Virus record (IMG/VR): IMGVR_UViG_3300021197_001673
Coordinates: 1 to 23,524 of that record
Strand: one strand, 5' to 3'
Length of the DNA: 23,524 bases
DNA from: a virus
This document shows, in pieces, positions 1 to 21,995 of this stretch. How positions within the stretch are numbered: position 1 is the first letter of the stretch; each line of letters starts with the position of its first letter. The notes beneath the pieces were generated by a model. It worked only from the letters and a program-made list of their open reading frames with translations, searched no databases and had not been told where the DNA came from. The translations under genes and the position numbers were made by a program.

Positions 1-2075
1 TCACTAGTGAACATTAATTTTTTAGTTTCAATAGAATTAACATAATTAGAACTGTAAGTAGTATTAGTAAGAGATATATTTGCTATAACCTCTGGAGCGC
101 CCATATCATAGTTACCCCAGCCAAATTGAATACCACCACTAATAGTTACAGCATTATATGTACTTGTAGATAATGCTTTAGTTGTAGCATCAACATAATA
201 TTTAGGGCTTAAATCATTTTCAGTACCTGCTATACCTTGACCTCTGATACGAACGTAAACTCTGTCTTCCCGATCTCTTCCGATTCTATAATACAAAGGA
301 TAAGATGTACCATACCATCGAGCTGTTGGGTTTGTTCCGTTGACTTGAGGGTTAGCAACTGCACCTGAAGACCCAGAGACGCTAGCAGCTACATTAGCTA
401 GACCAGATGTTGCTTGATGACCGTTAGCAAAATATGTAGTAAACATTACATAATCAGGTATGTTTATGTTTTGTATATGGCTATATGTTCCACCAGGTTG
501 TGTATACAACCATTCGTTACTTGCTTCTGCTGCAGCACTTGTTGGGAACATAGAAAAGCCATGCCAACCATAACCTCCAATAGCAAATTCTATTTCCCAA
601 TGACCAACAAAACCACCAGGTTTAGTAGTATTAGCTTCTCTAAAATCATTTGATCCTGGGTTAGACCACATTGTAATTGTAGGACCATATGTACCATTAG
701 TAGTCCAATTGAGTAGAGTACCATGAGAAGGTGCAAAACCTAAATTAGATACATTATCAGAATCATATACTACTACTATTTCTGAATCAGGTATTTTTCT
801 GTCAATAACATATACATCACCTACTTGACCTATAGGCCAACCAATCTCTGACTTAACTGGAGTCTCACTAATGACTCCAGCGACGCTATCTGAGTCTAAT
901 GTATACGCGCTTTGATTATCTATGAGCAATCTATAGAATGTATCTGAGTCAATAGCTATATGTCTAAGACCATTATACAATAGAGGGTTATCAGAATCGT
1001 TTGCTAAAAACTTTAGATTATCACTACCTATTAATCTACTTTCAGAGTCACTTGTTATTGTTACAACCTGACTTGATTGAATGTTGTTAGGTTTAAGATT
1101 ATCTACTTTAATTTTTGTTAAATTAGCTCTTGCCCATCTCTGATCAGAATCACCAATTGTACCACTACCATCACCATCCATTGGTAATAAGTTTCTTGTA
1201 ATTAAATCAATAGCTTGGATTAATGGTATCTCAGTACTACTTAAAATATCACCAAGTTCTGTCTGTTGATCAGAGTCGTTTTGTAATGAAAGTAATATAT
1301 GATCACCAAACTCATTACGTACCTCAGAGTCAGTTTCGTACACACTACTAATAACTTCTGTTAATGCTCTGGCTGCATCTGAGTCCCCACCAGGTGTAAG
1401 ACCAGATAAGGCAGTAATAGCAGTACGCAGAACTTCATTACGTACTTCAGAATCTGTTTGCATTACGTTGCTATAGAGCTCAACAACTCTTCTTGCTAGA
1501 TCAGAATCTTCTTCAACTGACTTTAAGAAGTTATCAGTATACCTAGATCTTAAATCAGAATCAACATCTAAGTTGTCCATTATTCTAGATGTAATTTTAA
1601 ATCTTTCAAAAGAATCGTATCTTAACCACCTATCTAAATGGGATTTAAGAAATAATAATATGTTTGTGTGTCTAATAGTACCATCAGAATCAGATGTTGG
1701 TACAGTATAATATTTTCTTTCGAAACCTGATGTTATAGTATTTTCAGTATTATCTATACTATAAAAATTATCTAATGAGTATAAAGATTTATTTAACCCT
1801 TTATATGCTATAAATGTAGCTTCATCTTTTACTGGAATGGTACCAGGTCCAATAGAATCACTATCATGGTAACTTACCATCTGACCTATATCAGTTATAT
1901 CTTTATATAAGCTAGCTGCATATTCCCATACACTATTACGCATAGCGTCAGAATCAAATGGTGTATTACCATCTTTATCTAAAAGCTCTACAATCTTAGT
2001 TTTATTCAGCTTTGCGTAGAAGCTGTAGAGTGTAAATCTTTTAGGTTGGTTTCTATATGTAAATTTACCTGACAT
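1..2075 (-). CDS. Fibre-like virion protein, distal copy of a tandem paralogue pair (3' end outside window)
   Basis: The frame is open from ATG at 2075-2073 to the window edge, giving 691 full codons without a stop. A Shine-Dalgarno-like AAGGT lies just upstream, and the paralogue's stop codon is 8 bp away. The first ~440 residues are clearly related to the next gene: shared LLDKDGNTP at 31-39, SVWEYAA at about 48-54, TDSEVRNEFGDH, and an IGDS..RW shaft-type motif near 306-312. Residues about 171-283 form 18-residue helical repeats that begin with DS[DE]. From about residue 440 the paralogy ends. The remaining 250+ residues are rich in Gly, Thr, Asn and aromatics with no DS[DE], which suggests a separate receptor-binding or tip region (inference). 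Sixteen DS[DE] tripeptides lie in the first 440 residues. I do not recognise a named family; a tail or side fibre role is inferred from the shaft motif, modular build and late structural context. Confidence 0.72.
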   Translation of the reverse strand, partial: MSGKFTYRNQPKRFTLYSFYAKLNKTKIVELLDKDGNTPFDSDAMRNSVWEYAASLYKDITDIGQMVSYHDSDSIGPGTIPVKDEATFIAYKGLNKSLYSLDNFYSIDNTENTITSGFERKYYTVPTSDSDGTIRHTNILLFLKSHLDRWLRYDSFERFKITSRIMDNLDVDSDLRSRYTDNFLKSVEEDSDLARRVVELYSNVMQTDSEVRNEVLRTAITALSGLTPGGDSDAARALTEVISSVYETDSEVRNEFGDHILLSLQNDSDQQTELGDILSSTEIPLIQAIDLITRNLLPMDGDGSGTIGDSDQRWARANLTKIKVDNLKPNNIQSSQVVTITSDSESRLIGSDNLKFLANDSDNPLLYNGLRHIAIDSDTFYRLLIDNQSAYTLDSDSVAGVISETPVKSEIGWPIGQVGDVYVIDRKIPDSEIVVVYDSDNVSNLGFAPSHGTLLNWTTNGTYGPTITMWSNPGSNDFREANTTKPGGFVGHWEIEFAIGGYGWHGFSMFPTSAAAEASNEWLYTQPGGTYSHIQNINIPDYVMFTTYFANGHQATSGLANVAASVSGSSGAVANPQVNGTNPTARWYGTSYPLYYRIGRDREDRVYVRIRGQGIAGTENDLSPKYYVDATTKALSTSTYNAVTISGGIQFGWGNYDMGAPEVIANISLTNTTYSSNYVNSIETKKLMFTS
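1227..1565 (-). repeat. 18-residue helical repeats in the paralogue, with one 5-residue insertion
   Basis: The same repeat block occurs from residue 171, with DS[DE] at 172, 190, 208, 231, 249 and 267. Spacing is 18 except between the third and fourth units (23), where GLTPG is inserted after TDSEVRNEVLRTAITALS. TDSEVRNE occurs twice, as in the neighbouring gene. Keeping the 18-residue register in both paralogues argues that unit length is structurally constrained. Confidence 0.82.
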
Positions 2076-2083
2076 GGTCTACC

Positions 2084-3745
2084 TTATGATAATACTAATC
2101 TTAACCACTGTCCACCATCCCAGAAAACTGGATATGCTGTTGAGCCTCCAATACTTTTTGGATCCCAGTTAACACCATCTGCGACAGTAATAGTTCCTGG
2201 TCTTAAACCTTCATAGCCCAACTCATCAGAATCAGGAGGGCTAGCCATTGGAGCAAAAACAATAACATCATCAAATGTTCTACCAGTACCAATTGTGTGG
2301 TATGTAGTACCATCATAATAGAAAGTCTTTTTATTAGTAGAGTTGTGGCTTATTCTACCTATTTTCATTGCAGCTTTAACAGCGGTATCTGTACCTGACG
2401 ATACATCAACTATAGGACCATTTGCTAGGGTGTTTTTATTATCTGAATCGATATAATAAATGTTACCAAAATCACCAGGAGGTACAGCTACAGTTGATAG
2501 AATAGTTGAATTCGCTATAATAGCTTCCACAGCATCTGAATCTAGACCTACAAACTGACTAAATTCAGAATCAACATTTTCTTTTAATAGACTATATAGT
2601 TTATCAGAGTCAATAGCAAGTATATTTTTACCATCATAAACTAGACCATCATTGTCATTAAATCTTAATCTATCACTTGTTACTAGCTTACCGGCACCGT
2701 CTTCTGAATCACCTACAAATACTACACCGTCTTTTTCTAAATTTCTTACTTTAACAGCATCAGCACTAATTGTAGCAAAATTACCAAAGCCCCATCTTGT
2801 TTCAGAGTCACCTATTCTACCAGTATCGTCGCTATCCATAGGTAGAACACGTCTAGCGTAAATTGTGTCAGCGTTTAATTCGGTTAGATCAATGTCACCT
2901 AACATACGTCCAAGTTCTACTTGTTGATCAGAATCGTTTCTAAGAGATACTAAGAAGTGATCACCAAACTCATTACGTACTTCTGAATCTGTATCTAATA
3001 CAGAACTTACAATCTCAACTAATTCTCTTGCTCTATCAGAATCATTTTGTAGTGCTGTAATAGTAGTTAGTAATATTTCATTACGAACTTCTGAATCAGT
3101 TTGGAGTACATTACTAACTTGTTCAACAAGTCTACGAGAAAGATCTGAATCCTCTTCTAATGCTTTAATTACATTATCAGCATATCTATATCTTACATCA
3201 GAGTCTTCATCTAAGTTATCAGCAATACGTGATGCTAGTTTACGTCTTTCGTAAGGATCAAATCTTAACCATCTATCAAAATGTGACTTCAAAAACGTAT
3301 ATACGTTTACATGTCTTAGCGTACCCTCAGAATCAGACAAAGGTAATGAGTAATATTTTCTATGAAAATTACCAGTAATAGTATCCATTGAATTGTTAAT
3401 ACCATTATCTGAATCTAAAGAATATAACCACATTTTGAGAGGCTTATACACGTCTTTTACTGTTACAGTTCTTGCAATTGTGGTCCAATTGTTAGAACCG
3501 GAACCATCTGAATCTGCTCTAAAATTATCTGAATCAAAATAAGATAAACGACCGCCGTGATCTTGAATATCTTTGTGAAGATATGCAGCATACTCCCAAA
3601 CGCTATTGTCTATAGAATCCGAATCGTAAGGAGTATTACCATCCTTGTCTAATAGTTCACGTACGTGAGCTTTGTTTAGAAACGAATAAAATGAGTTAAC
3701 ATCAAATCTTTTTGAGTTATTTCCGTGATTTTTTCTTCCGGCCAT
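2084..3745 (-). CDS. Fibre-like virion protein, proximal paralogue with 18-residue helical repeats
   Basis: This 553-residue protein starts at ATG 3745 with TAGGTAAAC before it, a usable ribosome site. The N-terminal ~440 residues parallel the downstream gene, including DSD at the same residues 41 and 71. Residues 180-287 hold six 18-residue units starting with [ETN]DS[DE]. LPMDSDDTGRIGDSETRWG (about 301-319) resembles the GS..RWG shaft motif of phage fibres. The C-terminus differs from the paralogue: it ends in YPVFWDGGQWLRL, like the short C-terminal cap seen in many marine phage fibres. Nineteen DS[DE] tripeptides are present, starting at residues 41, 71, 78, 111, 138, 181, 199, 217, 235, 253, 271, 304, 313, 346, 379, 392, 402, 433 and 505. 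It is the first gene of a leftward unit driven from the divergent gap. The fibre role is inferred; no enzymatic motif is visible. Confidence 0.75.
   Translation of the reverse strand: MAGRKNHGNNSKRFDVNSFYSFLNKAHVRELLDKDGNTPYDSDSIDNSVWEYAAYLHKDIQDHGGRLSYFDSDNFRADSDGSGSNNWTTIARTVTVKDVYKPLKMWLYSLDSDNGINNSMDTITGNFHRKYYSLPLSDSEGTLRHVNVYTFLKSHFDRWLRFDPYERRKLASRIADNLDEDSDVRYRYADNVIKALEEDSDLSRRLVEQVSNVLQTDSEVRNEILLTTITALQNDSDRARELVEIVSSVLDTDSEVRNEFGDHFLVSLRNDSDQQVELGRMLGDIDLTELNADTIYARRVLPMDSDDTGRIGDSETRWGFGNFATISADAVKVRNLEKDGVVFVGDSEDGAGKLVTSDRLRFNDNDGLVYDGKNILAIDSDKLYSLLKENVDSEFSQFVGLDSDAVEAIIANSTILSTVAVPPGDFGNIYYIDSDNKNTLANGPIVDVSSGTDTAVKAAMKIGRISHNSTNKKTFYYDGTTYHTIGTGRTFDDVIVFAPMASPPDSDELGYEGLRPGTITVADGVNWDPKSIGGSTAYPVFWDGGQWLRLVLS
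2885..3208 (-). repeat. Six 18-residue (54-nt) helical repeats
   Basis: Five exact 18-residue units and a partial sixth run without gaps from residue 180: EDSDVRYRYADNVIKALE, EDSDLSRRLVEQVSNVLQ, TDSEVRNEILLTTITALQ, NDSDRARELVEIVSSVLD, TDSEVRNEFGDHFLVSLR, then NDSDQQVELGRMLGDI. Units 2 and 4 resemble each other, as do 3 and 5, giving a 36-residue super-repeat. Each opens with [ETN]DS[DE], a good helix N-cap, followed by an amphipathic helix. The DNA copies have diverged, so the repeat is old at protein level. Confidence 0.85.
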
Positions 3746-3773
3746 GTTTACCTACAAGTTATCTATATATTTC

Positions 3774-3796: not shown

Positions 3797-4204
3797 ATGG
3801 CACTACAACAAACATATGAAAGAAAGAATATCTATAAAGATTTTGATATTTCTTTTAACTTAAACCCTATCACGGGTGATATAGGTACTAAAACTGATGT
3901 TAATGCTATTAACCAAAGTTTAAAAAATTTGGTTAATACAAACTTCTACGAAAGACCTTTTCAACCGTTTTTAGGGTGTAATATTAGAGGTTTATTATTT
4001 GAATTGGCTGATCCGATTACTATGTCAGATCTTAAAACTGCTATAAATGAAACTATAAGTAATTACGAACCAAGAGTTTCTATTATAGAATTAAGATTAG
4101 ATGATTTATCTGATCAAAACGCTTATAATGTTAGAATTGTCTACAACATTCTTTCTTCTAATACTGTAAATCAATTTGAAACTATTTTAAAAAGGCTTAG
4201 GTAA
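3797..4204 (+). CDS. gp25: Baseplate wedge protein gp25 (lysozyme-like fold family)
   Basis: The 135-residue length fits T4 gp25 (132 aa) and the GPW/gp25 family. The hallmark stretch YERPFQPFLGCNIRGLLFELAD is at about residues 51-72 (RPF.P.LG..I..LLFE). The family is known to sit in the baseplate wedge, contacting gp6 and the sheath initiation site. The adjoining gene is gp6 with a 1-nt stop/start overlap (TAATG), the arrangement seen in related marine phages. It contains no DS[DE] tripeptide, unlike most neighbours. No Shine-Dalgarno site precedes the ATG; see the promoter-like octamer 4 nt upstream. The start is supported by family length. Confidence 0.9.
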   Translation: MALQQTYERKNIYKDFDISFNLNPITGDIGTKTDVNAINQSLKNLVNTNFYERPFQPFLGCNIRGLLFELADPITMSDLKTAINETISNYEPRVSIIELRLDDLSDQNAYNVRIVYNILSSNTVNQFETILKRLR

Positions 4205-6009
4205 TGGATCAAAGACCGGTAGTAAGTGATCTTGATTTTTCTTCTATTAAAGAAGATATGATTGAATACTTTAAAGAAAGACCAGAGTTTGCAGACTATG
4301 AATTTTCAGGTTCTAGTTTAAACTTATTAATGGATATTTTAGCTTACAATACACATTACAATGCATTAACTGCTAACTTTCAATTAAATGAATCATTTTT
4401 AGATACTTCGTTAATTAGAGGCAATGTAGTTTCCCTAGCTAAGTCTCTTAACTACATACCTAGATCAGCTAGATGTTCTACAACCACAATCACTGTTAAT
4501 GTTCCTAAAGTTAGTAATGAAGGTTTCTTTGTTATTCCAGCTGGTTCTTATTTTACAGCTTCTTCTGGAAGCACAAAATTTAATTTTTATACAATAGAAG
4601 ATAATACTGTCTCTTTTAATAGTAATCAGATTACTAACACTATTGATTTAAAAGTTTTTGAAGGTAAAATATTTACTCAAAGATTTGTATATAATAATTC
4701 TTTAGAAGAGTTTCCATCTTTTGATTTACAAATACCTAATATTGATACAACTACTTTATCTGTAAACGTTGATGGAATAAGATACACACAAATAACACCA
4801 GAAACAGAAGGAAGTGTTAATACAGATAAAAATTCAAAAGTTTATTTCGTAGAAGAGACTATGGATGGATCTCATAAAATTATTCTAGGTAATAATGTTA
4901 TAGGAAAAAAGCCAGATATAGGAAGTGTTATACTAGTAACATTTATTAAATCTTCAAGTGAAATATCTAACGGTGCTAAATTGTTTAGTGTTAATATACC
5001 AGGCAGAACAGATATTACTATTAACGGTACACCTAACGCATCACAAGGAGGACAATCTCCTGAGAGTATTCAGTCTATTAAAGACACTGCGCCACATTGG
5101 TTTCAATCTCAATTTAGAGCTGTTACAGAAAATGATTACAAAGCTTTCTTAATTAACAAATTTGCTGACATACAATCAATTAATGTTTACGGTGGTGAGA
5201 AAGTAAACGAGCCGGGTAAAGTTTTTATTGCTATCAAACCCAAATCGGGAGATAAACTTACCAATTCAACAAAAGACACTTTACTCTCTGGGCTTTTAAA
5301 CAAATCAAGCGTAGTTACTATTAGACCTGAATTTGTAGACCCTTCTATTTTAAATTTGGTATTAAAAACTGTAGTAGTTTATGATGAGAGTTTATTAAGT
5401 ACTAATAGAAGTGTAATAAAAACTAAAGTACAAAGTTTAATAGAAAATCTAAACAATGCATATATAGGTGACTTTTTATCTAATTTTAACGAATCAAGTT
5501 TTTCAAAACAAATTTCTGACTTAGATAATTCTATTCTAAGCTCAAATACTAGAGTGTCGATTAAAATTAAAACTAACGCGGTTAATGGTGTTCTTGATAA
5601 TTATGAATTAAAGTTTAACAATAAACTATATCACCCTAATGATGGTTTTAATGCTGTTAACGGTGGTGTTCTCACATCCAACTTATTTTTTAGAGAAGGC
5701 AGAGAATATCAATCTGGATTTGATGATGATGGTTTCGGTAATGTTAGATTATTTGATTTTGTTGACGATGAAAAGATCACGGTAGAACCAAATTCAGGTA
5801 GTATTGATTATGAAACAGGCACTGTATTGTTACAAGATTTTGATCCTGCTGATGGTGTAATTAACTTTACAGCTATACCAGATTCAGTAGATGTATTAGC
5901 TACAGAAAATACAATACTTCAAACTTCTGCAGAAGATTCAAGTATTGATGTAATAGAGAAGAACGAAACTTCAGTTATTAAAAATCTTAACTTATCGCGA
6001 AGCATCTAA
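4204..6009 (+). CDS. gp6: Baseplate wedge protein gp6 (baseplate J-like family)
   Basis: At 601 residues it is close to T4 gp6 (660). The N-terminal region has the strongly conserved pattern of marine T4-like gp6: DFSSIKEDMIEYF near residue 11, GSSLNLLMDILAYNTHYNA at about 36-54, then FLDTSLIRGNVVSLAKSLNYIPRSA. The middle (about 280-420) holds GAKLF.VNIPG, SIQSIKDTAPHWFQSQFRAVTENDYKAF and VFIAIKPKSG, typical of baseplate J-like proteins. gp6 dimers form the inner wedge ring joining gp25, gp53 and gp7 in T4. It contains no DS[DE] despite abundant D and S, a useful internal control for the motif found in other genes. Start and stop overlap both neighbours by 1 nt. Confidence 0.9.
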   Translation: MDQRPVVSDLDFSSIKEDMIEYFKERPEFADYEFSGSSLNLLMDILAYNTHYNALTANFQLNESFLDTSLIRGNVVSLAKSLNYIPRSARCSTTTITVNVPKVSNEGFFVIPAGSYFTASSGSTKFNFYTIEDNTVSFNSNQITNTIDLKVFEGKIFTQRFVYNNSLEEFPSFDLQIPNIDTTTLSVNVDGIRYTQITPETEGSVNTDKNSKVYFVEETMDGSHKIILGNNVIGKKPDIGSVILVTFIKSSSEISNGAKLFSVNIPGRTDITINGTPNASQGGQSPESIQSIKDTAPHWFQSQFRAVTENDYKAFLINKFADIQSINVYGGEKVNEPGKVFIAIKPKSGDKLTNSTKDTLLSGLLNKSSVVTIRPEFVDPSILNLVLKTVVVYDESLLSTNRSVIKTKVQSLIENLNNAYIGDFLSNFNESSFSKQISDLDNSILSSNTRVSIKIKTNAVNGVLDNYELKFNNKLYHPNDGFNAVNGGVLTSNLFFREGREYQSGFDDDGFGNVRLFDFVDDEKITVEPNSGSIDYETGTVLLQDFDPADGVINFTAIPDSVDVLATENTILQTSAEDSSIDVIEKNETSVIKNLNLSRSI

Positions 6010-9000
6010 TGAGCAATGTTGTACAACCATTTGTAAGTCAAAATTTACCTGAGTTTATTTCCTCAGATAACCCTACATTTAAACTTTTTATCGAAGCTTA
6101 CTACGAGTATTTAGAAAAAAGAAATGATTCTGAAGCTCTTTCTGTTAAAGAAATGTTTAAAGCTATCGATAACCCTGCAGCGGTTGTTAACAATAGTACC
6201 GATTACAAAGATGTAGACAGTACTTTAGAGAATTTTCTTGATTACTTTAAAAGAGAAGTTTTACCTATCGCGGTAAAAACTAATTCAGTAACCGACAGAT
6301 TTCTTATTAAAAAAATTAGAGATGTTTATTTAGCTAAAGGCTCGCCAAAATCATTTGAGCTTTTATTTAGAATGTTATATGATCAAGAAATAGATATTAT
6401 CGAAACAAGAGATAATATCTTAGAAGCTTCAGAAGGTAAATTTTTAGCTTTTCCCTTAGTTACTTTTAAAGTTACTCAATTTTCTGAAAAGCTCAGCAAT
6501 ATTAACTTTACTCTTGCTTCACTTACACATTCAGATGATAATTTTGTTACTGATTCAGAAGTTGCGACATGTCTAAGCGGACAAATTCTAGGTAAAACTG
6601 CAGATAGTGATAAAGCTTTTGTTATTAGTTTACAGCTTAATTTTGCATTTGAACCTGACAGTGACGCTGTTTATAGAATTACAGATCCGGATGATAATAC
6701 AATATTTTTAGAAGTTGTTCCGTTTTTATCCTTAGTTGATTTAGTTGCAAAAAATAACGCGCCGGGTTATAGTGAAGGTGATGTTATTAAAGTAAGATCA
6801 AAATCTTTAAATAAAAGCTTTAATGTTATTGTAGATAGTGTTAATAATGGCCCAGTCACTGGTTTACATTTTAGAGATAGAGGTGAGTTTTTTAACGTTG
6901 GTGATAGTTTTATATTAACACCTTCTTCTCCTGCTGACGGTTCTGGGGGTTCGGCTGTTGTTACAGAAGTTGATAATAATGGTAGAATTCTTTCAGTGGA
7001 TGGTTATGCTTTAAGAACAGGTGTAAATAATAACGGTTTCTTAGCAGATGATTTTGAAAATGTTACTGTACCTATTATTAACGGTGGTAGTTACAATAAA
7101 CTACCTGATGCAACAATAAACAACGGTACTACAGTAATGCAAGCTTTACCTTATGCTAGATCCAATACTTCTGGTCAAGGTCCGCAATTCTCTCCTATAT
7201 CAACTGAAATAGGGACTATTGCAAATTTAAATATTAATGACAGAGGTTATTTTGCAGATACAAATGACATTGTAGTTGAAGCGCCTATGAATGTCACCAT
7301 TGAAGGGTATACAAGATTTGTAAAAGGGCAGCTGGTTTCATTTCAATATATTGATCAAAAAAATCAATCGTTTTTTAATGACTCTGATAGATTAGATATT
7401 AGTATTAAAGTTAACAAAACTGTAGATGGTAACTCAAAATATAATGTTAAATCAATTAAGCTACCTTTTGATTTTGACAGCGAGTTATTTCAATGGACTG
7501 ATTCAGATTTTATGATCGATTCTGATCACGGTTTATCCTTAGCTACCACTAAATGGAAAACTTTATCTGGAAGGCATCTTAATATAGAAGTAATAGATGA
7601 TAGTGATTTAGGTTTTAAAGCTAGGTTAAGTAATAAGTTTCTTAACGGTTTAGATTCATATCACTTTAATCAGTTAAACAACTATACATTTAACGATTCA
7701 GATTATATTTTTAGTTGGAGAAATGATTTTAGTGATGCGAAACTTGGTGTAGATAGTGAAGTAGCAGAATGGAAAAATACTGGTTATTTTGGTATAGTAA
7801 GCAGAATAAATTCTAATAAAAGAACTTTATCAATATCATCTGTTTCTAATAGACCTTTTCCATCAGATAGTGATTTACAAAATTTTGATAAAGTAAAGAA
7901 TAGAATAATTAGAATAGTAGCTTTTAACCCAGCAACTGATTCTCCTGTTATAAGAGAAAGAGAAATTTTAGCTAATATTCTTACAAATTATAACAGAGCT
8001 TCCTTTACACCTGTTTTAAGTTCTTTTGGTTCTTCTACCAGAACTTTTATAAACGAAGATGGTTTTTTAAACTCTTCTTCAGGAGGTGTTGTACAAGACA
8101 ATTACTTGTATTCTGCTTACACTTATATTATTCAAAGTAATTTGTCGGTTAATATCTGGCGTGATAAAATAAAAGAAACTTTACACCCTGCAGGTCTTCT
8201 TATGTTTGGAGAGACTAATTTAAATGCAAACTCTAAAGTGCCTCTTAATATAACCGCTGTAACAGATATTGAAAATTATGATACAAACTTTACATTTGAC
8301 ACTGCTTTAGATCATTATTCTGACGTTAGTTTAGCAAATAGAGTAACCGCAGACAATACAAGATATGAAGCGAACGCTTTTTTGTTCTATAAACAAAATT
8401 TAACTACTTTAAATGCTCTTACAGCAAGTAGTTTTGAAAGAGGTTATGATGAAGCTATCGTATCCGAATATGGGTCTTCTTGGTTTGACTACGAACCTAT
8501 GGGTCTAGTTAGAAATGAAAAAGTAAATTATGATAATTTTTACAACAATTATAATAACTTTGATTCTGACGTGTTTAATAGATCTGTTTCAACACAAGAT
8601 TCAGATGGTAGTAGCTATGTAAAAGCTCTAACTATGAACTATAAAAAATATGACGGTACAGTGCAGGATTTGTATAAAAAAGAATCTAGAACTAGATCTA
8701 GTTATAGTCCTGTTAAAATTGTATCTACTAAGTTTATTGATCCTATTAACGATTTATATTCTGTATACGATTCAGATATACCATTAGCGGATCTTATTAG
8801 ATGGTCAGACAGTGAAGACAAGACTTTTAAAGCCATTGATTATAACAAACTTAAATCTGTTAATGACACTAGAACATTTAAATGGTATAATACAGATAGA
8901 AAAAAAGAAATGAAATTTAAAATGAACATCGATCTTAATAAAGCTATGAGATTAGATGGTACATTAAAATTTACAGAACAAGACGGTACTGTATATGAAA

Positions 9001-13800: not shown

Positions 13801-16534
13801 TCCTAATAGTTCTGCAGACACTGAACATGAAGAGTATAGAGCATCTATCGACGTAATCGACAACATGCTGATACCAGGACAAACTGACGGTGTACAACTT
13901 CCATTACAATTTTCTAGTAAAATTAATATTGATGATTACTACTATCAAACTTCAGATATTATTATAAAAAAATATAATGAAGAAGAGTTCTTATCTCAAA
14001 ACAATGCAACTGGTTGTCATAGAATCAATCCTTTTGCTACATGGATTTATGTAGGTGAGTTGAAACTTACACCAAACGAACACCATTGGAGAACAAAAGT
14101 AAACAATTACTTTACTAACCTCTATGGTAGCGTAAGACCGTTCAGTGGTGATTCAGATCAGTTTAGCCAGTTCTTAAGAGTAACAACATCATCTCCTGGT
14201 GGCTCTTCAACTTCAAGACTCGAATGGTTTGGTAGAACTAACACAGTTAGCCGAAGAGTGGGTGGAAACTTTGTAGAAACTACTACTACACAAGCTCAAA
14301 GAAGAGTTACTACTACTTCTTTTGGCGCGCCAAGAGTGATAGCGGGTAAAAAACCAACTACTACTCACACTGGATCAGAAGTTATTCAAAACCTTCAAGA
14401 CTACTACATGGTTAATCCAGCTGGAGGTGTTGGGTTCAAAGCTACAAATTTAAGACCTAATACTGAACATGAATTGTATATGGGTCAAAAACTTATTGAC
14501 GCTTCTCTAACTTCTTTGAATGACGGAACTATAACCGGTAACTTTAATATACCGTATCAAACTTTTAAAGCGGGTGAAGAAAAAGTTATTATTAGAGATA
14601 AGACTTTAGGAGGCAAAGCTTCTAGCGCAGCTAATATCTTTAAGTCAGTAGGACACAGAGACTTTTATAATATAATTGCTGATGTAGATACTAAAAGAAT
14701 TAGAACTCAAAATTTAGGTACTAAAGTAAAATCGTTTACAAGAGAAGTGGATATTCCACCTGACCGCGGCGGACCTGATGGCGATGGCGGCGGTAACGGT
14801 GACCCAATTGCACAGCTATTTAAATTACCTACTAAAGGTAATCCTACTACAGCAGATATCTTATCTGGTACTGATCTTGCAACAGAGCCAGTTGGCATTA
14901 TTACATCAATAGATCTTTGGTTGTGTTTTGTAGATATTAGACCTGTAATGGATAAAATTATTATTGAAATAAGAGAAACAGTAAATGGTTATCCTGGAGG
15001 TCCTGACGAAACTATAGGTGATACAGGTTGGATTAATATTGATAAATCAATGGAAGTAAAATCGCCTACTTCTACTAATTCAACAAACTTTAGATTTAAA
15101 GAACCTGTATATCTAAAAGGTGATACAGAATACGCTATTGTAATAAAATCTCCTTCAGATGTTTCTGAAGTATTTGTTGCGGAAATAGGTAAACAGCTTT
15201 TAGATGGTTCTGGTATTCATGACCAACAACCTAACGTAGGTGGTTATTTTGGATCATTCTTTATATCTCAAAATCAAACTACATGGTCAGCTGAACAAAA
15301 TTTTGATCTAGCATTCAAACTTAATAGAGCTAATTTTGATATAGATGGTACAGGTACACCTCCTACATCTACATTAATAATGAAAAATGAATTATCAAAC
15401 CTTAAAGTACATAAAGCTGATATTGGTGCTTTCAATAGAGGATTAGCTATTGAGACATTTGAAAATTCTAATTATGTAAGAATTAACCACCCTAATCATG
15501 GCATGCATTTTAACAATGCTCAGGTTACATTGATGGGTCTAGATAAGTTTGGTACACCTAACAATTTTAATGGTATTCCAGACTCTGAGTTAAACTCTAC
15601 TCACGAAGTATTATTTGCAACTTTAGATTCTTACTTTATTAAAACAACTACTAAAGCTACATCATCTGGAACACCACCAGTACCAGTATTTGATACCTTT
15701 GCTACTCAACCGGTTGTATACGATAGCTTAATTGCAAACGTACCATTCTTTAAAGGTAAAGCAGATGATAGTGTTAACGGTTTCATAACTGCATCTAAAA
15801 GTAACTCACTTAATTTAGTAATTGATTCAAATAAAATTAAAAACGATTCTTTAGCTAATGTTGTACAAGGTGTAGAGACTCCAATTGCTATAAATGAATA
15901 TACTGAATTAGAAGAACCACATGTAGTACGTAACTTACTAAATTCTACTTCTAATGATCTTATTATGAAATATACTTTAGATAGTAATAGTATTTACAGT
16001 TCACCTGTATTTAGAATTGGGGACACTTTAAACCCTGTTGTGTTTAGAAATGTTACAGGTAAAGTTTTAAACGATTCTGATATTGAAGGTTTAACTACAA
16101 CTACAATAACTCCATCTAGTAATGATCAAGCACTTCAAGAATATACTTCTAGGTTATCAGCTATTAAGTCTGAAGAAGAATTTTCTGCTTACGTAACTAA
16201 ACAAATTGATTTAGAAATACCTGCAGATGGTTTCACTATAAAGTTTGATGCAGATATGGAACCAGGTTCTAAGTTAGAATTCTCATACAAAGCTAGACAA
16301 AAAGGAGATCTTACACCGTTTGATCAAATTGCTTGGGATGATTTTAAAGCTTCAGAATTTGTAACAGAAGCTAATAACGGACCGTTTACATCAGATACTG
16401 ACTTTAAAGAGTATACTGTTAATGCTACAGTTCCTTATGAGTATTCTTCTTTCAAAATTAGAATACGAATGATTACAACAAACGAAGCTCAAATTCCACG
16501 CATTAAAGATCTAAGAATTATAGCAGATATTTAA
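10823..16534 (+). CDS. Giant baseplate-associated structural protein (DUF4815 N-terminus, gp10-like)
   Basis: The protein has 1903 residues. The N-terminus (about 3-65) has the DUF4815 pattern NVSPYFDDYDPDKDF.RVLYRPGFPVQARELTTLQ followed by QIERFGSHIFKEGS. Near residues 940-970 a short coiled coil, MRDIGRIEDRVNRIEDAVALSLLE-like, matches the spot seen in large marine T4-like structural proteins. A Gly/Asp-rich linker (about 1313-1328) precedes a jelly-roll-like segment (about 1330-1510: SIDLWLCFVDIRPV, IEIRETVNGYPGGP, FKEPVYLKGDTEYAIVI, SQNQTTWSAEQNFDLAFKLNRA). Then come VRINHPNHGMHF (about 1552) and a C-terminal domain (about 1785-1903). Proteins of this type follow gp8 in marine T4-like phages and are often called gp10-like, but that label is uncertain. 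Only five DS[DE] occur, much sparser than in gp7 or the fibres. Confidence 0.75.
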   Translation: MANINLNVSPYFDDYDPDKDFLRVLYRPGFPVQARELTTLQTFMQKQIERFGSHIFKEGSRVSEGNITVNRTVTRLFLTGSGNASFPLANARTASSLADVATLQGKIITNSDGTVKARVLLQPTGSVGTSNIGNLFIQYITAKEFASTGDFIYATIADNPGLVTAELVNTFNAVSPSCLGEITEGVYYANGFFTRVNAQTVVISSTTNTPSVKLGFRAEQTIVTQNADATLYDNARGTSNEGAPGSHRLKQTLAFATLALDAEEEENFFRVATIENGTMVESVVGNPQYSDIGNTLARRTYDESGNYSVKPFPLTISDADSDTYNIRIGKAKAYVKGFEVEIIAPKIINFSKNSDFVRTKSYKIPFNNITNFLVNSSSGNLPGQTGSDPYTYANRLTLKDSDGDTIGVARAYGFFNSSLYIYDVKMFQVITTSSPITVSDGNDILSNRNTGYVYNNDGQAGVAGNATTLINWSGRFANNQSISSTVASISSSTTITNSQIFELTDVVTITGAGGFTASVSEPLNLNPELINTVSAEIKTLRGTATVFDNDFTIVENTGISSSTMNGYWNESRVDDQEEVEKTLRFKYLKIKNTGAAARTGTNFGWSAQDKHISLAYPDVFKVYGINEASSSSFATGQFSRIEVNTTGLVPVGSTIIGQSSGTTAIVALQNATSTGADDIASTTGYHSTLTGTGSTSTLEVIYQKNTAFTTSEVLTVVSPAGVSAYTSPITFTSSTNPTGKDLSGMYTLDNGQRSEYYDIGRLIRKNGKQAPATGDIIIFYSYFIASPVNNFYYSTDSYSKLDYYKDDVRYYSEPQEIGYVAKNIGRDLRNSIDFRFRVEDITTNINDSPFMISSRNFYNQPRIKPDTVFTADFDEFQSNITSLSITKDGSLTYKKGQPALFNPKKPEEVKDAMSLFYLTIPGGVRYAEEEIEIETVDNKRYTMRDIGRIEDRVNRIEDAVALSLLESQALHDDIQGRAKSGFLVDDFSLAQNNPNSSADTEHEEYRASIDVIDNMLIPGQTDGVQLPLQFSSKINIDDYYYQTSDIIIKKYNEEEFLSQNNATGCHRINPFATWIYVGELKLTPNEHHWRTKVNNYFTNLYGSVRPFSGDSDQFSQFLRVTTSSPGGSSTSRLEWFGRTNTVSRRVGGNFVETTTTQAQRRVTTTSFGAPRVIAGKKPTTTHTGSEVIQNLQDYYMVNPAGGVGFKATNLRPNTEHELYMGQKLIDASLTSLNDGTITGNFNIPYQTFKAGEEKVIIRDKTLGGKASSAANIFKSVGHRDFYNIIADVDTKRIRTQNLGTKVKSFTREVDIPPDRGGPDGDGGGNGDPIAQLFKLPTKGNPTTADILSGTDLATEPVGIITSIDLWLCFVDIRPVMDKIIIEIRETVNGYPGGPDETIGDTGWINIDKSMEVKSPTSTNSTNFRFKEPVYLKGDTEYAIVIKSPSDVSEVFVAEIGKQLLDGSGIHDQQPNVGGYFGSFFISQNQTTWSAEQNFDLAFKLNRANFDIDGTGTPPTSTLIMKNELSNLKVHKADIGAFNRGLAIETFENSNYVRINHPNHGMHFNNAQVTLMGLDKFGTPNNFNGIPDSELNSTHEVLFATLDSYFIKTTTKATSSGTPPVPVFDTFATQPVVYDSLIANVPFFKGKADDSVNGFITASKSNSLNLVIDSNKIKNDSLANVVQGVETPIAINEYTELEEPHVVRNLLNSTSNDLIMKYTLDSNSIYSSPVFRIGDTLNPVVFRNVTGKVLNDSDIEGLTTTTITPSSNDQALQEYTSRLSAIKSEEEFSAYVTKQIDLEIPADGFTIKFDADMEPGSKLEFSYKARQKGDLTPFDQIAWDDFKASEFVTEANNGPFTSDTDFKEYTVNATVPYEYSSFKIRIRMITTNEAQIPRIKDLRIIADI

Positions 16535-16722
16535 TGAGTAATACACGAATAAAAGGTCACAGTAATCTAGTTAAAAGAAATGGTGCTGTGATTAATACAA
16601 ATAAAAAAGTCTACGAAGCTGCTAAAAAACGTAAAGCTGATAAAGACAGAGTAGACTTGTTAGAAAATAAAATAAATAGAATAGAAACTTTATTGGAAAA
16701 GTTAGTAGAACAGAATGGCTAG
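16534..16722 (+). CDS. Small coiled-coil virion-cluster protein (62 aa)
   Basis: The ATG overlaps the previous stop by 1 nt (TTTAATGAG), and the 3' end overlaps the next gene by 8 nt, so translation is probably coupled. The N-terminal half is basic (KGHSNLVKRNGAV, then KKVYEAAKKRKADKD). Residues about 39-60 form an amphipathic helix with heptad-like Leu/Ile spacing (VDLLENKINRIETLLEKLVEQ). Small ORFs of this shape sit at the same position in marine T4-like phages, as far as I recall, without a known function. It has no DS[DE]. A role as a linker or assembly peptide is inference. Confidence 0.7.
   Translation: MSNTRIKGHSNLVKRNGAVINTNKKVYEAAKKRKADKDRVDLLENKINRIETLLEKLVEQNG
16671..16678 (+). 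promoter_or_regulatory. Possible internal late promoter AATAAATA
   Basis: This octamer lies inside the 62-residue gene and is followed by GAAT, the same downstream context as the octamer at 19403. It is 36 nt before the ATG at 16715, so a transcript from it would carry a leader of about 30 nt for the 255-residue gene. It could also be chance within an A-rich coding stretch (codons for ENKINRI). Confidence 0.3.
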
Positions 16723-17482
16723 ATACGCATCGTTAAATAGAAGACTTGATTACCACTTATACCCGCAAGGTCGCTCAGCTAGTGAGCCTTCTCTAATACC
16801 TAATGTGAAAGATTCAGATGGAAATATTGTACAGTATTATAGCGGGGATAGAATCACTTCTGAGTCGACAGTGGTTGACATTGGGTCTTCTCCTAATGCT
16901 AATGATGGTGACCCTTTACGTACTGCGTTTATCAAAATTAATAATTTCGTTGAAGCAGAGTATATCACAAATGAAATCATTGATCAAGAGCTTAACAGAT
17001 TAGAATTTAACGGTCCCTTTCTAGGTATACTCGACTATGTTGATTTACCTTTAACTATGATAAGTGATAAAAACGTTGCGGTGGTAAAAACAACTTTATC
17101 TGCAGCTGGTTATAGCAGTTGGAGTACTTTATACCCTAACATCTCGTCTTCAGGTATAACATTATCAGAAGGTAACGTAGTGTTACATAAAGGTTCTTTA
17201 GTACAATATAATAAATCCTTTAATAACTATGATGTAATATACCAAAACTCAGGCGATTTTACAGCTTATGATTTTGGTACTTCTCTAGCACGCTTTAAAG
17301 ATGGTATAGCAGATGCAGATTTGACACCAGCGCAACAATTAGAATTATATAACAAGTTCAATGAAACTGAAGCAGGTTCTAATATTAATAATAACGTGAA
17401 GTCGCGAAACGTAAACGATGCAATAACAGAAACACATTTACGTTTCTCCAACAGAGGGTTCGATTCAGGGTATTATGGCTAA
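16715..17482 (+). CDS. Structural protein with fibre-type KIN..F..Y motif (255 aa)
   Basis: This is probably a virion component. Residues 55-83, DIGSSPNANDGDPLRTAFIKINNFVEAEY-like, match the G.GD.LR.AF.KIN..F.ELY pattern at the start of many marine T4-like fibre and baseplate adaptor proteins. A related copy is at residues 6-36 of the 466-residue protein further on. The remainder shows no named domain. One DS[DE] is present (residue 33). The gene is coupled to both neighbours: 8-nt overlap upstream and 1-nt overlap with gp14 downstream. It occupies the position of gp13 in T4, but I see no gp13-like features. Confidence 0.65.
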   Translation: MARYASLNRRLDYHLYPQGRSASEPSLIPNVKDSDGNIVQYYSGDRITSESTVVDIGSSPNANDGDPLRTAFIKINNFVEAEYITNEIIDQELNRLEFNGPFLGILDYVDLPLTMISDKNVAVVKTTLSAAGYSSWSTLYPNISSSGITLSEGNVVLHKGSLVQYNKSFNNYDVIYQNSGDFTAYDFGTSLARFKDGIADADLTPAQQLELYNKFNETEAGSNINNNVKSRNVNDAITETHLRFSNRGFDSGYYG

Positions 17483-18534
17483 TGGCAATCAAGAACAACT
17501 ACTCCGGTTTTACGATAGCGTCTACCACAGACTACAACAACGCTGATAATGATTCAGACTTCGGAGTTAATCTCAATAGATCAATCCAAAAAGTCAATAG
17601 TGATTATGCCCTCTCTGCTGGAGTTACAAATACTTATGTTGATGGCTACATCAACCAGTTTGGAGCCTCTGCTCGCTTCTCCACAAACGAACAAAGATTA
17701 ATTCAAAATATGATTAGAGAGTCTATAAACGTTAACGGTATAACTGTGCGTTATATGCCTCGTTCTTCTCCTTATACTGATGAAGTGTTTAATGAAAGAC
17801 CTGAAAGTAGATTTCATAGAGGTCTACAAATGGATATGTTATTAGTAGCAGCTGCAGGGTTTGAAGGTGAAGGTGATGTTATGACTACTTACGGAATTGA
17901 GTTCCGTGAAGAGGTTATTATGTCTGTTGCTATCAATAATTTTGAAAATTTATATAATTCATTTGATTCTGATCTTAAAACTAGTGGCGACAGCGAAGAT
18001 GCTAAAATATTTGCAAGATCGAGACCTTTAGAAGGTGACTTGATTGTAATACCTTTTGGTAGATCTGCACAAAACAAAAATCAATACGTGCCTAAAGTAT
18101 TTGAAATTCTTAGAGTTACAACTTATCATGATGGAGCATTCTTTCAGATAGGAGATAACTATCAGTATAAACTTAGATGTAGATTGTTCGAACTCAGTGG
18201 AGAAGACCTTGAATTTAATCCAACAGTTGTGGAATACAATGAGGACGGAACTCAACAAAACCTTATCGATTCAGATACAGGACCTATCGCACGAGCCAAG
18301 ACTGGATTAGAATTAACAGATTCAGAAACTAAAAACTTAAACATTACAGATGACAGTGATGATCATTTTGATACTTGGGCTGAAAATAGAGCTATAGAAG
18401 AACGCTCTCAGAAAGAAGTTCGATATGATAATAAAGGAGAACCTTTAAAAGAAAAAGCAGATGTAGTTACAAAAGATTACACAGCAGAAGCGTTTGGATA
18501 CGCTGGTATAATTAATAGTATAGATGATATCTAA
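17482..18534 (+). CDS. gp14: Neck protein gp14
   Basis: The core from about residue 66 matches gp14 of T4-like phages: RFSTNEQRLIQNMIRESINVNGITVRYMPR, then AAGFEGEGDVMTTYGIEFREEV (about 124-145), RPLEGDLIVIPF (about 181-192) and VFEILRV...FFQIGDNYQYKLRCRLFELSGEDLEF. gp14 forms part of the neck joining head and tail. At 350 residues it exceeds T4 gp14 (256). Extra length lies in an N-terminal stretch of about 65 residues, in an acidic loop at about 154-180 with FDSDLKTSGDSEDAK, and in the C-terminal tail. Six DS[DE] fall at residues 24, 162, 170 and three in the C-terminal quarter, all in presumed loops or extensions. The gene is coupled to gp15 by a 1-nt overlap. Confidence 0.8.
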   Translation: MAIKNNYSGFTIASTTDYNNADNDSDFGVNLNRSIQKVNSDYALSAGVTNTYVDGYINQFGASARFSTNEQRLIQNMIRESINVNGITVRYMPRSSPYTDEVFNERPESRFHRGLQMDMLLVAAAGFEGEGDVMTTYGIEFREEVIMSVAINNFENLYNSFDSDLKTSGDSEDAKIFARSRPLEGDLIVIPFGRSAQNKNQYVPKVFEILRVTTYHDGAFFQIGDNYQYKLRCRLFELSGEDLEFNPTVVEYNEDGTQQNLIDSDTGPIARAKTGLELTDSETKNLNITDDSDDHFDTWAENRAIEERSQKEVRYDNKGEPLKEKADVVTKDYTAEAFGYAGIINSIDDI

Positions 18535-19400
18535 TGATAGGGCAACACTTTTATAATGAAACTATAAAAACAGCTGTATCCGTATTTGGTAGTTTGTTTA
18601 ATAATATAGTTTTAAAGAGAAGAGACGGTAAGTTTCTTCCTGTTCCTATTTCTTATGGGCCTAGAACTAAATGGATAGAAGCACAAAAACAATTTAAACG
18701 TGAAGAAGAAATGTTTGAAAAGCTTTTACCTAGAATGTCTTATGAAATTGTTGCTATGGTTTATGATCAAGATCGTAAGATAACAAACAAACAAACTATC
18801 ATTAGAACACCTGATAGTCTAAGCTTACCAAGACAAAGAGTTCATGCACCTACACCATACAATTTAGATTTTACTTTGTATCTTACTACTAAAAATTTAA
18901 ACGATGGTTGGCAAATTATGGAACAAATTCTTCCATTTTTTACACCTGCTTATACTGTAAGAGTAAGAAACTTTCCTTTTGATAATGACTCAGATACACC
19001 TATGCCAACTAATGCATATGATATGCCGTTTATATTAACAGCAGCTACTTGGGCTGATGACTGGACAGGTGATATAGGTGATAGAAGAATAGTTGAATGG
19101 ACATTAGAGTTTACTGCTAAAGTGTTTTTCTTTGGTCCTGCTGTTACTACTAATATAATATATGACTCTAGAGCTCTTATATCTATGCCTGGAAGAGATT
19201 CAGATGGAAATATACCCGAGTTATATACATTAAATAGAGCGTCTAATATAGAAGGATTAGAGACAGGTTGGGCTAATTTAACTAAGCCTGATTCAGACTC
19301 AGTTTTAGATAGCGATTCTAAAGTTAGTCCTACTGTGATTAATCTTTCTGATTCAGACGGTAACATTACTAAGATTGTTCGCGATTTAAGCTTAATTTAG
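18534..19400 (+). CDS. gp15: Tail terminator / sheath stabiliser gp15
   Basis: The first ~210 residues follow the marine T4-like gp15 pattern: MIGQHFYNETIKTAVSVFGSLFNNI, a basic turn then PVPISYGPRTKWIEAQ (about 36-51), LPRMSYEIVAMVYDQDRK (about 65-82), PTPYNLDFTLYLTTKNLNDGWQIMEQILPFFTPAY (about 106-140) and WTLEFTAKVFFFGPA (about 189-203). gp15 caps the tail tube and sheath and docks to gp14, its immediate upstream neighbour. The protein then continues for about 70 residues (219-288) beyond the conserved end. That tail carries four of its five DS[DE] (residues 222, 253, 259, 273), and the fifth sits in a loop at 152. This extension is the part most unlike the family. Confidence 0.8.
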   Translation: MIGQHFYNETIKTAVSVFGSLFNNIVLKRRDGKFLPVPISYGPRTKWIEAQKQFKREEEMFEKLLPRMSYEIVAMVYDQDRKITNKQTIIRTPDSLSLPRQRVHAPTPYNLDFTLYLTTKNLNDGWQIMEQILPFFTPAYTVRVRNFPFDNDSDTPMPTNAYDMPFILTAATWADDWTGDIGDRRIVEWTLEFTAKVFFFGPAVTTNIIYDSRALISMPGRDSDGNIPELYTLNRASNIEGLETGWANLTKPDSDSVLDSDSKVSPTVINLSDSDGNITKIVRDLSLI

Positions 19401-19402
19401 GA

Positions 19403-19410: not shown

Positions 19411-19414
19411 GAAT

Positions 19415-20815
19415 ATGGCTTCTAAAGATTTAATTAATTTAGGTACTACACCAGATTCAGGAACAGGTGATTCAGCTCGTCAAGGCGGGTTAAAAATCAA
19501 CAACATGTTTGCTGATCTTTATTCTAATTTTGGTGATAACCCAATCGGTAATGATCCAAATAATACTTTTTATGGTTATAGAAGACCATTTAAAGATTAT
19601 GAATACAAAGTAGGTGAATTACATCCAGCTGGTAAATATACTATTGTAAATTTTAAATCTGGTGGTCCTACAACTCCTAGAGATACTATTAAGAATATGG
19701 GATATGGTGTTGATAGTGAGGGTGAGTTTGTTGACAGTAACGCTGACAACATTCCAGATATTTTTAGAGATAGTGAATGGTATTTTCTTTCTAGAGGAGA
19801 AAGAATTACTGCAGACTTAAGAGAAGTATCTCAAGGAAGAACTGTACATTTAGTTTTACCTTTAGCAAGAGCTGGTGATGTTATTGAAGTTAGAGATTCT
19901 TTCTCTTCTTGGCAACATAAAAACATTTCAATTTGGACTACACCATACGAGTTTAGAAACGTATCACAGATTACAGAATGGAAAACTCATACACCAGAAG
20001 CATTTTCTAATTATCCAGATTCAGATGCTGTAGCTTTAACCGATCATTTAAGTGTAAAATATTACCCTGTTTATAAAAGAGTAAACTTTAATCATGAAAA
20101 ATATGATTCAGATATAGCATTAAATTATCCTAAATTAGATCAAAAATTTAATATTAATGATGGTAAATCATTTGTTAACTTTAGTACGGCTCAAGATAAT
20201 ACACTTATTTTTACTTATCAAGGTCCAGATTCTGGTTGGGTATTAAGAAGAACTACTCTAATTAGTACGCAACAAATTATGAATGCTAGACAAGATAATT
20301 TTGAAGCGGGTGATTGGCTACAATGGAACAAACCTGACTTGACTGTTGCAGGTGAATTAGAACTTCAAAATGGTCAATACGTTTTACCTGTAGCTCCTTC
20401 TGCATTGCAAAGTGATATAGACGATGCAGTATCCCAACCAGTGTTTCAAGTATATAGAAGAATGACTGCTAACATGTATGATTCAGAAGCTTTAATTCAA
20501 ATTAATAGTTTCTTATATGATTACATTAATACAGAACAAGAAACTTCTTCAAATAGAAATACATTTAAAAGATTAAAAGCTGTATTTGGTAGAGATTCAG
20601 ATGGTGCCTTTAGTAATTCTCCAGACCTAGATTCTGATGGTCAAGGTCGTCCTAAAATTTATAACGGTTTTGCAGATGCAACACCTAGTCAAGTGTTTAA
20701 ACAAGTTACGGTTGGCTCAATAGTTGATCAAACAGGTAATATATTATTAATTACAGATCAGCCATTCCCAGGTATGGTTCAATTATTAGTACCAGGAGCA
20801 AGAGTAGATGATTGA
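19415..20815 (+). CDS. Fibre- or baseplate-associated structural protein (466 aa)
   Basis: Residues 6-36 (LINLGTTPDSGTGDSARQGGLKINNMFADLY-like) carry the KIN..FADLY motif that opens many marine T4-like fibre and adaptor proteins. This supports the ATG at 19415, because the motif would be truncated by the next Met (residue 31). The rest has segments such as GKYTIVNFKSG and RTVHLVLPLARAGDVIEVRDSFSSW, which read as beta-rich receptor-binding or decoration domains without a named family. Seven DS[DE] are spread through it; three use AGT and four use TCA or TCT. It overlaps the next gene by 8 nt, so the two are probably coupled. The function is inferred from motif and context only. Confidence 0.65.
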   Translation: MASKDLINLGTTPDSGTGDSARQGGLKINNMFADLYSNFGDNPIGNDPNNTFYGYRRPFKDYEYKVGELHPAGKYTIVNFKSGGPTTPRDTIKNMGYGVDSEGEFVDSNADNIPDIFRDSEWYFLSRGERITADLREVSQGRTVHLVLPLARAGDVIEVRDSFSSWQHKNISIWTTPYEFRNVSQITEWKTHTPEAFSNYPDSDAVALTDHLSVKYYPVYKRVNFNHEKYDSDIALNYPKLDQKFNINDGKSFVNFSTAQDNTLIFTYQGPDSGWVLRRTTLISTQQIMNARQDNFEAGDWLQWNKPDLTVAGELELQNGQYVLPVAPSALQSDIDDAVSQPVFQVYRRMTANMYDSEALIQINSFLYDYINTEQETSSNRNTFKRLKAVFGRDSDGAFSNSPDLDSDGQGRPKIYNGFADATPSQVFKQVTVGSIVDQTGNILLITDQPFPGMVQLLVPGARVDD

Positions 20816-21995
20816 TAGTGATAGCCAAATTCAAAGAGGTTTTGTACAACACCGTAGATCACTTACTAATGGTGTAAACGGTGAAGGTCAACCTTTAACA
20901 AGTCAAGTGCTTGAGGGTGAGATTGCAATAAATCTTGCAACTAGAAAACTTTATACTAAGCGGCAAAAATTTAGTACTTTTACTATGAGCAACACAGTAA
21001 ATGACTTTGAGCAGAATGCTGGTTTTATTCTTGACTTTAATAATTTTAGTTATGACTCTGACTCTATAAACATTTCATATGCTATTAATGGAAACGCAAA
21101 AACATTAGTGCTAGATTCTGATAGTAATTTAGCTTCTATTATTTTACAAGTAAAGAATGCTGCTATAGCAGAAGTTGGAGCTGCTCAAGTTGCGACTACA
21201 GATACTTCTGTAACATTTTTTATGACTACTGGAACTTCATCTATTACGTTTAGCTCTGACTTTGTACGCTTTATTGACTTTGATTTTAAGCCTGTTTTAA
21301 GAGTTGGTTTAAATGCTAGCGCTTCGTTACAAGGTTCCAATGCTAGTACTATTATTGATTTTGATTTAGCTACATCTGGTTTTAGAAGAACCCAAGGTAA
21401 TGGTAGATTAATATCCCATACAGGAGCTACTTTATACCTTAAAGACTTTGCAGGTATTATAGCAGCTGGTTATAAGATAACTCAAAGAGAGCCTAGAGAC
21501 GAATACGAAATTATTGAAATTAATAACGTACCAATAGTGTTACCTAAAGCACCAGAAAAAGCTCTTAACTCAGGCAATTTTTGGATTAGAAATAGAGATT
21601 CAGAGTCGGGTAAACTATATTGGTTAGACACTTCAATTACAGATGATTCTGATTTCCAAGTATCGATTCGTCAATTAGATTCAGATACCAAAGTAGAAAA
21701 AAATGCTGTTGTAGTTGATTCTGATGGTAATGGTAACTTAATGTATGGTGAGTGGAGAGCTATTGTATCTACTTCGTTGTTAGGTTCAGGCGGAGGTAAT
21801 ACATTTGAAGGTGATGTAACTTTTGCTAATGACGTGACTGTTGATTCAGATCTAACTGTTAAAGGTGACTTTATTTTTGATGAAAAAAGATTTAACGATA
21901 CATCGATGTTTACGGTTAAGGACGTCAATAGTAATATTGTTATTTCAGGACACTTATTTCAAATAGATAGTGATCTTCCCGATCCTGGAATTTAG
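20808..21995 (+). CDS. Virion structural / fibre-like protein (395 aa)
   Basis: A GGAG ribosome site lies 11 nt before the ATG at 20808, inside the end of the upstream gene. Residues 35-51 (LEGEIAINLATRKLYTK) are the L.GE.AIN.A..KLYTK motif common near the N-terminus of marine phage structural and fibre proteins. The C-terminal part contains a short beta-like shaft motif, GNTFEGDVTFANDVTVDSDLTVKGDF-like, typical of fibre repeats of the form GDVTF..DVTV. Nine DS[DE] occur in 395 residues, one of the densest in the window, including MIDSD at the very start. No enzymatic motif is seen. Role: probable fibre or baseplate decoration. Confidence 0.65.
   Translation: MIDSDSQIQRGFVQHRRSLTNGVNGEGQPLTSQVLEGEIAINLATRKLYTKRQKFSTFTMSNTVNDFEQNAGFILDFNNFSYDSDSINISYAINGNAKTLVLDSDSNLASIILQVKNAAIAEVGAAQVATTDTSVTFFMTTGTSSITFSSDFVRFIDFDFKPVLRVGLNASASLQGSNASTIIDFDLATSGFRRTQGNGRLISHTGATLYLKDFAGIIAAGYKITQREPRDEYEIIEINNVPIVLPKAPEKALNSGNFWIRNRDSESGKLYWLDTSITDDSDFQVSIRQLDSDTKVEKNAVVVDSDGNGNLMYGEWRAIVSTSLLGSGGGNTFEGDVTFANDVTVDSDLTVKGDFIFDEKRFNDTSMFTVKDVNSNIVISGHLFQIDSDLPDPGI

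Follow-up and report, generated by a model that had tools for sequence, protein, structure and literature searches.

A strict Asp-Ser-Asp/Glu tripeptide in tail-exterior proteins of a marine T4-like phage is a candidate sequon for serine modification

The stretch of viral DNA considered here, positions 1 to 23,524 of IMG/VR record IMGVR_UViG_3300021197_001673 (23,524 nt; "the window" denotes this whole stretch), belongs to a marine T4-like phage and covers a block of late genes. The tripeptide DS[DE] (Asp-Ser-Asp or Asp-Ser-Glu) recurs in ten of their proteins. An earlier note, made from the letters of this DNA, had drawn attention to it. We compared the window with motif-bearing relatives of two lineages, R1 and R2. 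R1, whose members share the same word, is represented by 11 related contigs together with one, L161, from a control scan, and its genomes are fragments; R2 comprises about 25 contigs, some of 78-153 kb. Open reading frames (ORFs) were called mechanically and genes were named from homology, as follows.

3-2075, minus strand: tail fibre-like protein A, 691 residues, open at the window end; 16 DS[DE], several opening 18-residue repeats
2084-3745, minus strand: tail fibre-like protein B, 553 residues; 19 DS[DE]; relatives compared
3797-4204, plus strand: gp25-like inner baseplate wedge protein; 0 DS[DE], internal negative control
4204-6009, plus strand: gp6 / baseplate J-like protein; 0 DS[DE], internal negative control
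6009-9368, plus strand: large baseplate wedge protein ("gp7" in the earlier note), 1119 residues; 18 DS[DE]
9365-10795, plus strand: gp8-like baseplate wedge protein; 8 DS[DE], no position in common with R2
10823-16534, plus strand: VrlC-like baseplate protein, 1903 residues; 5 DS[DE], 5/5 conserved in R1, 0 common to R2
16715-17482, plus strand: 255-residue protein; 1 DS[DE]
17482-18534, plus strand: neck protein gp14 (head closure Hc2); 6 DS[DE]
18534-19400, plus strand: gp15-like tail sheath stabiliser; 5 DSD
19415-20815, plus strand: baseplate-fibre connector-like protein, 466 residues; 7 DS[DE], 7/7 conserved in R1
20808-21995, plus strand: long-tail-fibre-like protein, 395 residues; 9 DS[DE]
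22007-22900, plus strand: 297-residue protein at the block border; 0 DS[DE]
22910-23335, plus strand: 141-residue protein at the block border; 0 DS[DE]
23304-23522, minus strand: C-terminal 73 residues of a predicted GT-A-fold (GT8-like) glycosyltransferase gene, cut by the window end; 90% identity to L034:6033-6878

The name gp7 for the 1119-residue protein is a label of convenience, since pelagimyophages are reported to lack T4 gp7 and to have VrlC in its place (PMC7029224).

The earlier note had counted about 94 DSD/DSE tripeptides in ten proteins, and our recount agrees exactly, both in total (69 DSD and 25 DSE) and protein by protein (16, 19, 18, 8, 5, 1, 6, 5, 7 and 9). Composition does not explain these counts: residue shuffles within proteins gave 7.5 +/- 2.7 DS[DE] (z = 32; maximum 17 in 500 shuffles), and when the two repetitive fibres were left out, 59 DS[DE] were observed against 5.8 expected (at most 15 in 2000 shuffles). 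DSD (69 against 4.6) and DSE (25 against 2.9) are the most and the second most over-represented tripeptides in the whole window. The word is strict. DT[DE] (4), ES[DE] (1), DN[DE] (4), DG[DE] (4) and DA[DE] (4) are each at or below chance, DS followed by any other residue is slightly under expectation, and the flanking positions are nearly free of constraint. A short, strict consensus whose conservative substitutes (T for S; E for the first D; N; G) stay at background is what characterises a sequon. Only the 1903-residue and 255-residue proteins, with five copies and one, lie near the shuffled range; despite this, all five sites of the former are conserved across all relatives.

We considered that a repeat or uptake-like DNA word, or a mutational artefact, might underlie the pattern, and indeed TCA is somewhat over-used for the serine of the motif (0.40 against 0.23). 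The frame test refutes a DNA-repeat origin, which we rate as negligible: the sense frame holds 94 of the 96 nonamers capable of encoding DS[DE], and the motif is written with five serine codons and both aspartate codons. Selection thus acts on the protein.

In the R1 contigs the motif occurs in this same group of proteins and, according to whole-contig ORF tables, almost nowhere else. In their pooled motif-rich proteins DSD occurs 416 times against 23 expected (about 18-fold) and DSE 116 times against 11 (about 10-fold), with DSA exactly as expected (17 against 17; 1.0). All relatives retain 63 of 96 aligned R1 sites, and in most R1 proteins retention exceeds that of other serines (for example, 17/23 against 27/88 in gp7). 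At position 3, D and E replace one another, and sites that are lost turn into unrelated residues, none of them into DTD, DTE, ESD or ESE.

Lineage R2 came from a scan with the glycosyltransferase-like gene that adjoins the block. The motif was not part of the query, and in about twenty of the 80 loci retrieved, DSA or DSD is the top or near-top over-represented tripeptide. When the motif-rich proteins from four R2 contigs are pooled, they contain DSA 199 times against 18 expected, DSD 122 against 17, DSG 66 against 19, DSS 61 against 22, DSN 37 against 15 and DSE 2 against 7; proteins for the R1 and R2 pools were picked by motif count, and the same split between the lineages is equally plain in whole loci. 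As read from these proteins, D and S are fixed at positions 1 and 2, and position 3 obeys a rule of the lineage: D or E in R1; A, D, G, S or N in R2. A post hoc test on the non-virion proteins of four R2 genomes gave 48 DS[ADSGN] against 74.8 expected (controls, 43 against 43.2), a weak sign of possible avoidance; the shortage is seen in G014 at 13.1-108 kb and in the orthologues in G015 and G016.

The preference for alanine bears on one of the roles suggested in the earlier note, that of Ca2+-binding acidic turns of the EF-hand or DxDxDG-like kind. The motif is acidic and some copies read DSDG, but alanine cannot ligate calcium, and DGD, DND and DTD are not enriched in the window proteins, as would be expected of a DxDxDG-type ligand series; we regard this role as very improbable.

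Mapping orthologues via the annotated genome of Pelagibacter phage Mosig showed which proteins carry the motif. In the motif-bearing lineages, enrichment is seen in the sheath stabiliser, gp8, VrlC and the fibres, and in addition in the sheath in R2 and in neck protein gp14 in R1; counts are zero or at background in the tube, tube initiator, tail cap, hub proteins, gp25, gp6, capsid, portal, prohead protease, SSB and polymerase. As far as homology places these proteins, the motif in both lineages is confined to those of the tail exterior (baseplate periphery, neck, sheath and its stabiliser, fibres). The same proteins are near zero throughout in Mosig, in Methylophilales phage Melnitz and in contig G023, and of 80 T4-like control contigs selected by homology to VrlC, 79 lack enrichment, the exception being L161, which falls in the R1 clade. 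The motif is therefore not ubiquitous among T4-like phages. Neither outcome that the earlier note had named as refuting its observation came about: shuffled proteins did not give similar counts, and homologues in other T4-like phages lack the tripeptides. Three other T4-like contigs (L223, L187 and L168) have a strong excess of other words, QAF/QAN, YAN/NSA and KQG/NEL, which resemble ordinary tandem repeats. By the genes tested, the nearest isolates infect Pelagibacter and Methylophilales, and our literature searches found no description of a DS[DE]-type motif.

Within orthologous proteins the two lineages place the motif differently. Eight R1 sites and six R2 sites in gp8 share no alignment column, nor do five R1 and seventeen R2 sites in VrlC; in the sheath stabiliser one column is common to both. 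Together with the orthologue table, this alignment rejects the possibility that the sites are shared ancestral residues of T4-like tails, and in its differing sites the motif behaves as a portable, enzyme-read tag might, whereas a residue required for fold or catalysis would be expected to keep its position. Sites lie near insertions and deletions more often than residues in general (16/24 in R1, 10 expected; 30/60 in R2, 16 expected), and such sites are probably surface loops; the predicted structure of gp8 (predicted local distance difference test score, pLDDT, 34) was too low in confidence for mapping surface exposure. In one R2 phage, VrlC is split over separate ORFs, and the upstream ORF (L072:20015-20863, minus strand; CFLAGTMVEMEDG) has a Hint/intein-like segment, with Pfam Hint matches under the cutoff (E 0.006-0.03). 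R1 contigs form a clade of their own, and R2 groups with its intermediates in a second. The gp6 tree is compatible with a single origin of the trait (approximately unbiased test, p = 0.44) and the VrlC tree requires two changes; either one origin or two would fit these trees.

Fibres A and B (window positions 3-3745, minus strand) contain 18-residue repeats that each start with DS[DE], for example at residues 172-267 of protein A, which suggests a helical repeat shaft. Aspartate, serine and a further aspartate or glutamate are all good helix N-cap residues. DS[DE] could accordingly be a structural motif that lends stability to loops and to the starts of repeats, either as an N-cap or as a tight acidic turn, and many fibre copies do start a helical repeat, with 11 spacings of exactly 18. 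Since the repeat sets the spacing there, a capping role may apply in the fibres. As a general explanation it is unlikely: caps accept T, N and G, yet DT[DE] and ES[DE] are not enriched, and capping leaves unexplained the third-position rule of R2, the lack of the motif in gp6 and gp25, and the differing sites in orthologues of the same fold. Of the three roles offered in the earlier note, serine modification thus fits best; helix caps and calcium turns are disfavoured because DT, ES, DN and DG forms are not enriched and the sites do not recur in orthologues.

A strict short word, probably exposed at the surface in many copies and gained independently at its sites, might also be a recognition tag that is never modified, a linear epitope for a phage or host partner such as a decoration protein, chaperone, receptor or exopolymer. 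A candidate partner is lacking, and it would be unusual for a binding motif to recur some 94 times across ten differently folded proteins, modification sequons being the commoner precedent; we see little chance that this is the explanation.

The earlier note had stated that no transferase gene is visible, which is incorrect at the window's edge. The gene cut at 23304-23522 (minus strand), which overlaps the end of the 141-residue gene on the opposite strand, encodes 73 visible residues that match the C-terminus of a 282-residue glycosyltransferase-like protein (L034:6033-6878, contig G001) at 90% identity. This sister protein, of which the window holds the C-terminus only, has the sequence YLDHD with D102 and D104 invariant, as in a GT-A fold with a DxD motif, and its AlphaFold model (pLDDT 92.7) is GT-A-like. 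The best match of the model in the PDB by Foldseek is a glycosyltransferase of chlorovirus PBCV-1 (A64R, deposited as glycosylating the major capsid protein; E 6.5e-6); further matches are LARGE1, XXYLT1 and LgtC, with modest template modelling (TM) scores of about 0.4-0.58. A 276-residue relative matches Pfam GT8 (5.6e-9). Beside the block lies a second putative glycosyltransferase of 237 residues, identified by a DxD motif only; it has no Pfam match, and a profile search of the PDB with its family found no relative. Homologues of full length for the neighbouring glycosyltransferase-like genes are at L034:6036-6878 and L034:7495-8202. Around the GT8-like gene are genes for a methyltransferase-like protein, carbamoyltransferases, a DegT aminotransferase, radical-SAM proteins and Asp/Asn hydroxylases (PF05118). 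R2 genomes have a further cluster of epimerase, GT25, GT8-like and methyltransferase genes, at 79880-87999 in G014, without counterpart in Mosig, Melnitz or G023. Dense cassettes also lie between the tail block and terminase in G003 (L024-L025; 36-48 kb), L034 (6-20 kb) and L027 (1-9 kb), with radical-SAM, Asp/Asn hydroxylase, carbamoyltransferase, DegT and nitroreductase-like genes and many unassigned proteins of 180-240 residues.

We propose, with slightly better than even confidence, that DS[DE] serves as a sequon for a phage-controlled enzyme and that its serine is modified, most likely by O-glycosylation. Two things make this chemistry the likeliest: genes for handling sugars lie next to the block, and staphylococcal SdgB modifies the bare tripeptide, adding N-acetylglucosamine to the minimal peptide DSD (PMC8561734). 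A sequence-reading enzyme would recognise the three-residue address in the host cytoplasm and modify its serine. With many copies on the exterior of the contractile tail and on the fibres, modified serines would form a coat over the tail once it is assembled. Such a coat might protect the tail from proteases, from host receptors or from binders that compete with it, or it might adjust adsorption. The sequences show the strict word, its distribution over proteins and lineages and the genes beside it; modification of the serine, a sugar as the added group, the enzyme responsible and the purpose of the coat are inferred.

Several observations weigh against this proposal. Mosig has the same block-adjacent cluster (DegT, carbamoyltransferase, methyltransferase, GT8-like) and no motif enrichment; R1 does not always have the GT8-like gene, whose place in contig G003 is taken by a different glycosyltransferase-like ORF; Asp/Asn hydroxylases and radical-SAM enzymes flank the block too, so that another chemistry is possible; no isolate record matched the DS-rich tail and fibre proteins tested; and the avoidance signal, itself post hoc, is absent in R2 genome G022. 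Mosig and about 45 GT8-bearing loci without enrichment rule out the GT8-like gene as a sufficient cause, and we found no gene that R1 and R2 share and that non-rich phages lack, the R1 genomes being incomplete. Because Mosig has the cluster without the motif and G003 has a different glycosyltransferase-like ORF, we name no enzyme as the reader.

The other chemistries at the same sequon would be serine phosphorylation, or beta-hydroxylation of the first aspartate by the neighbouring hydroxylases. The strict aspartate at position 1 and the PF05118 hydroxylases beside the block are consistent with the latter. Mosig, however, has the same hydroxylases without the motif, hydroxylation of aspartate leaves the serine at position 2 unexplained, and no kinase family is among the flanking proteins scanned; we consider these chemistries decidedly improbable.

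Extending the proposal of O-glycosylation to both lineages, it is possible, though we put it a little below even, that the whole tail exterior of two marine T4-like lineages is the substrate of a phage-encoded modification that reads sequence only, each lineage with its own sequon, and sites gained and lost independently of fold: a virion-wide glycocalyx of the tail whose code can evolve. If so, sequence alone would predict some hundred modified serines per phage genome, the large and so far unexplained glycosyltransferase clusters of pelagimyophage-like viruses could be interpreted as virion-coating machinery, and the lineages would offer a natural series of DSx-reading enzymes that differ in specificity, as well as a simple text pattern by which decorated virions could be recognised in metagenomic data.

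Known systems resemble the proposed one in part. The O-glycosylation sequon of Bacteroidetes, D(S/T)(A/I/L/V/M/T), likewise has three residues with aspartate first, and allows alanine at position 3, as R2 does; here, threonine is never enriched, and aspartate, glutamate and glycine occur at position 3. The Bacteroidetes system is periplasmic, and phage tails assemble in the cytoplasm. Among phages, mycobacteriophages have virion glycans made by phage glycosyltransferases. According to the account of Freeman et al. (2023) given in PMC12619734, the glycans are carried by capsid and tail tube proteins, at the C-termini of the subunits, whereas R1 and R2 have the motif on the tail exterior and not in capsid or tube. 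Chlorovirus PBCV-1 also decorates virion proteins with virus-encoded glycosyltransferases, and the GT-A structure of its A64R is the best fold match of the block-adjacent gene, though the similarity is remote; its capsid glycans are N-linked, at sites without a common sequence pattern, and it is an algal virus (PMC4691112). Auxiliary GT8 genes have been described in pelagimyophages, the same kind of phage with the same glycosyltransferase family and a VrlC-type baseplate, but there they are proposed to modify the host O-chain, and virion protein targets or a sequon are apparently not discussed (PMC7029224).

A further parallel is with staphylococcal SdgA and SdgB (PMC8561734, PMC3794999), for which DSD is the minimal acceptor; DSD, the commonest word in R1, would be a candidate acceptor there. 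The staphylococcal targets are serines between aspartates in surface-destined proteins, and the enzymes are cytoplasmic and use nucleotide sugars. They differ in having a GT-B fold with DUF1975, a family that we did not find among the flanking proteins scanned, the adjacent phage candidate being GT-A-like. Their substrates, a small number of adhesins, carry the sites in long SD repeats, whereas the phages have single tripeptides spread over ten unrelated virion proteins, and lineage R2 prefers DSA.

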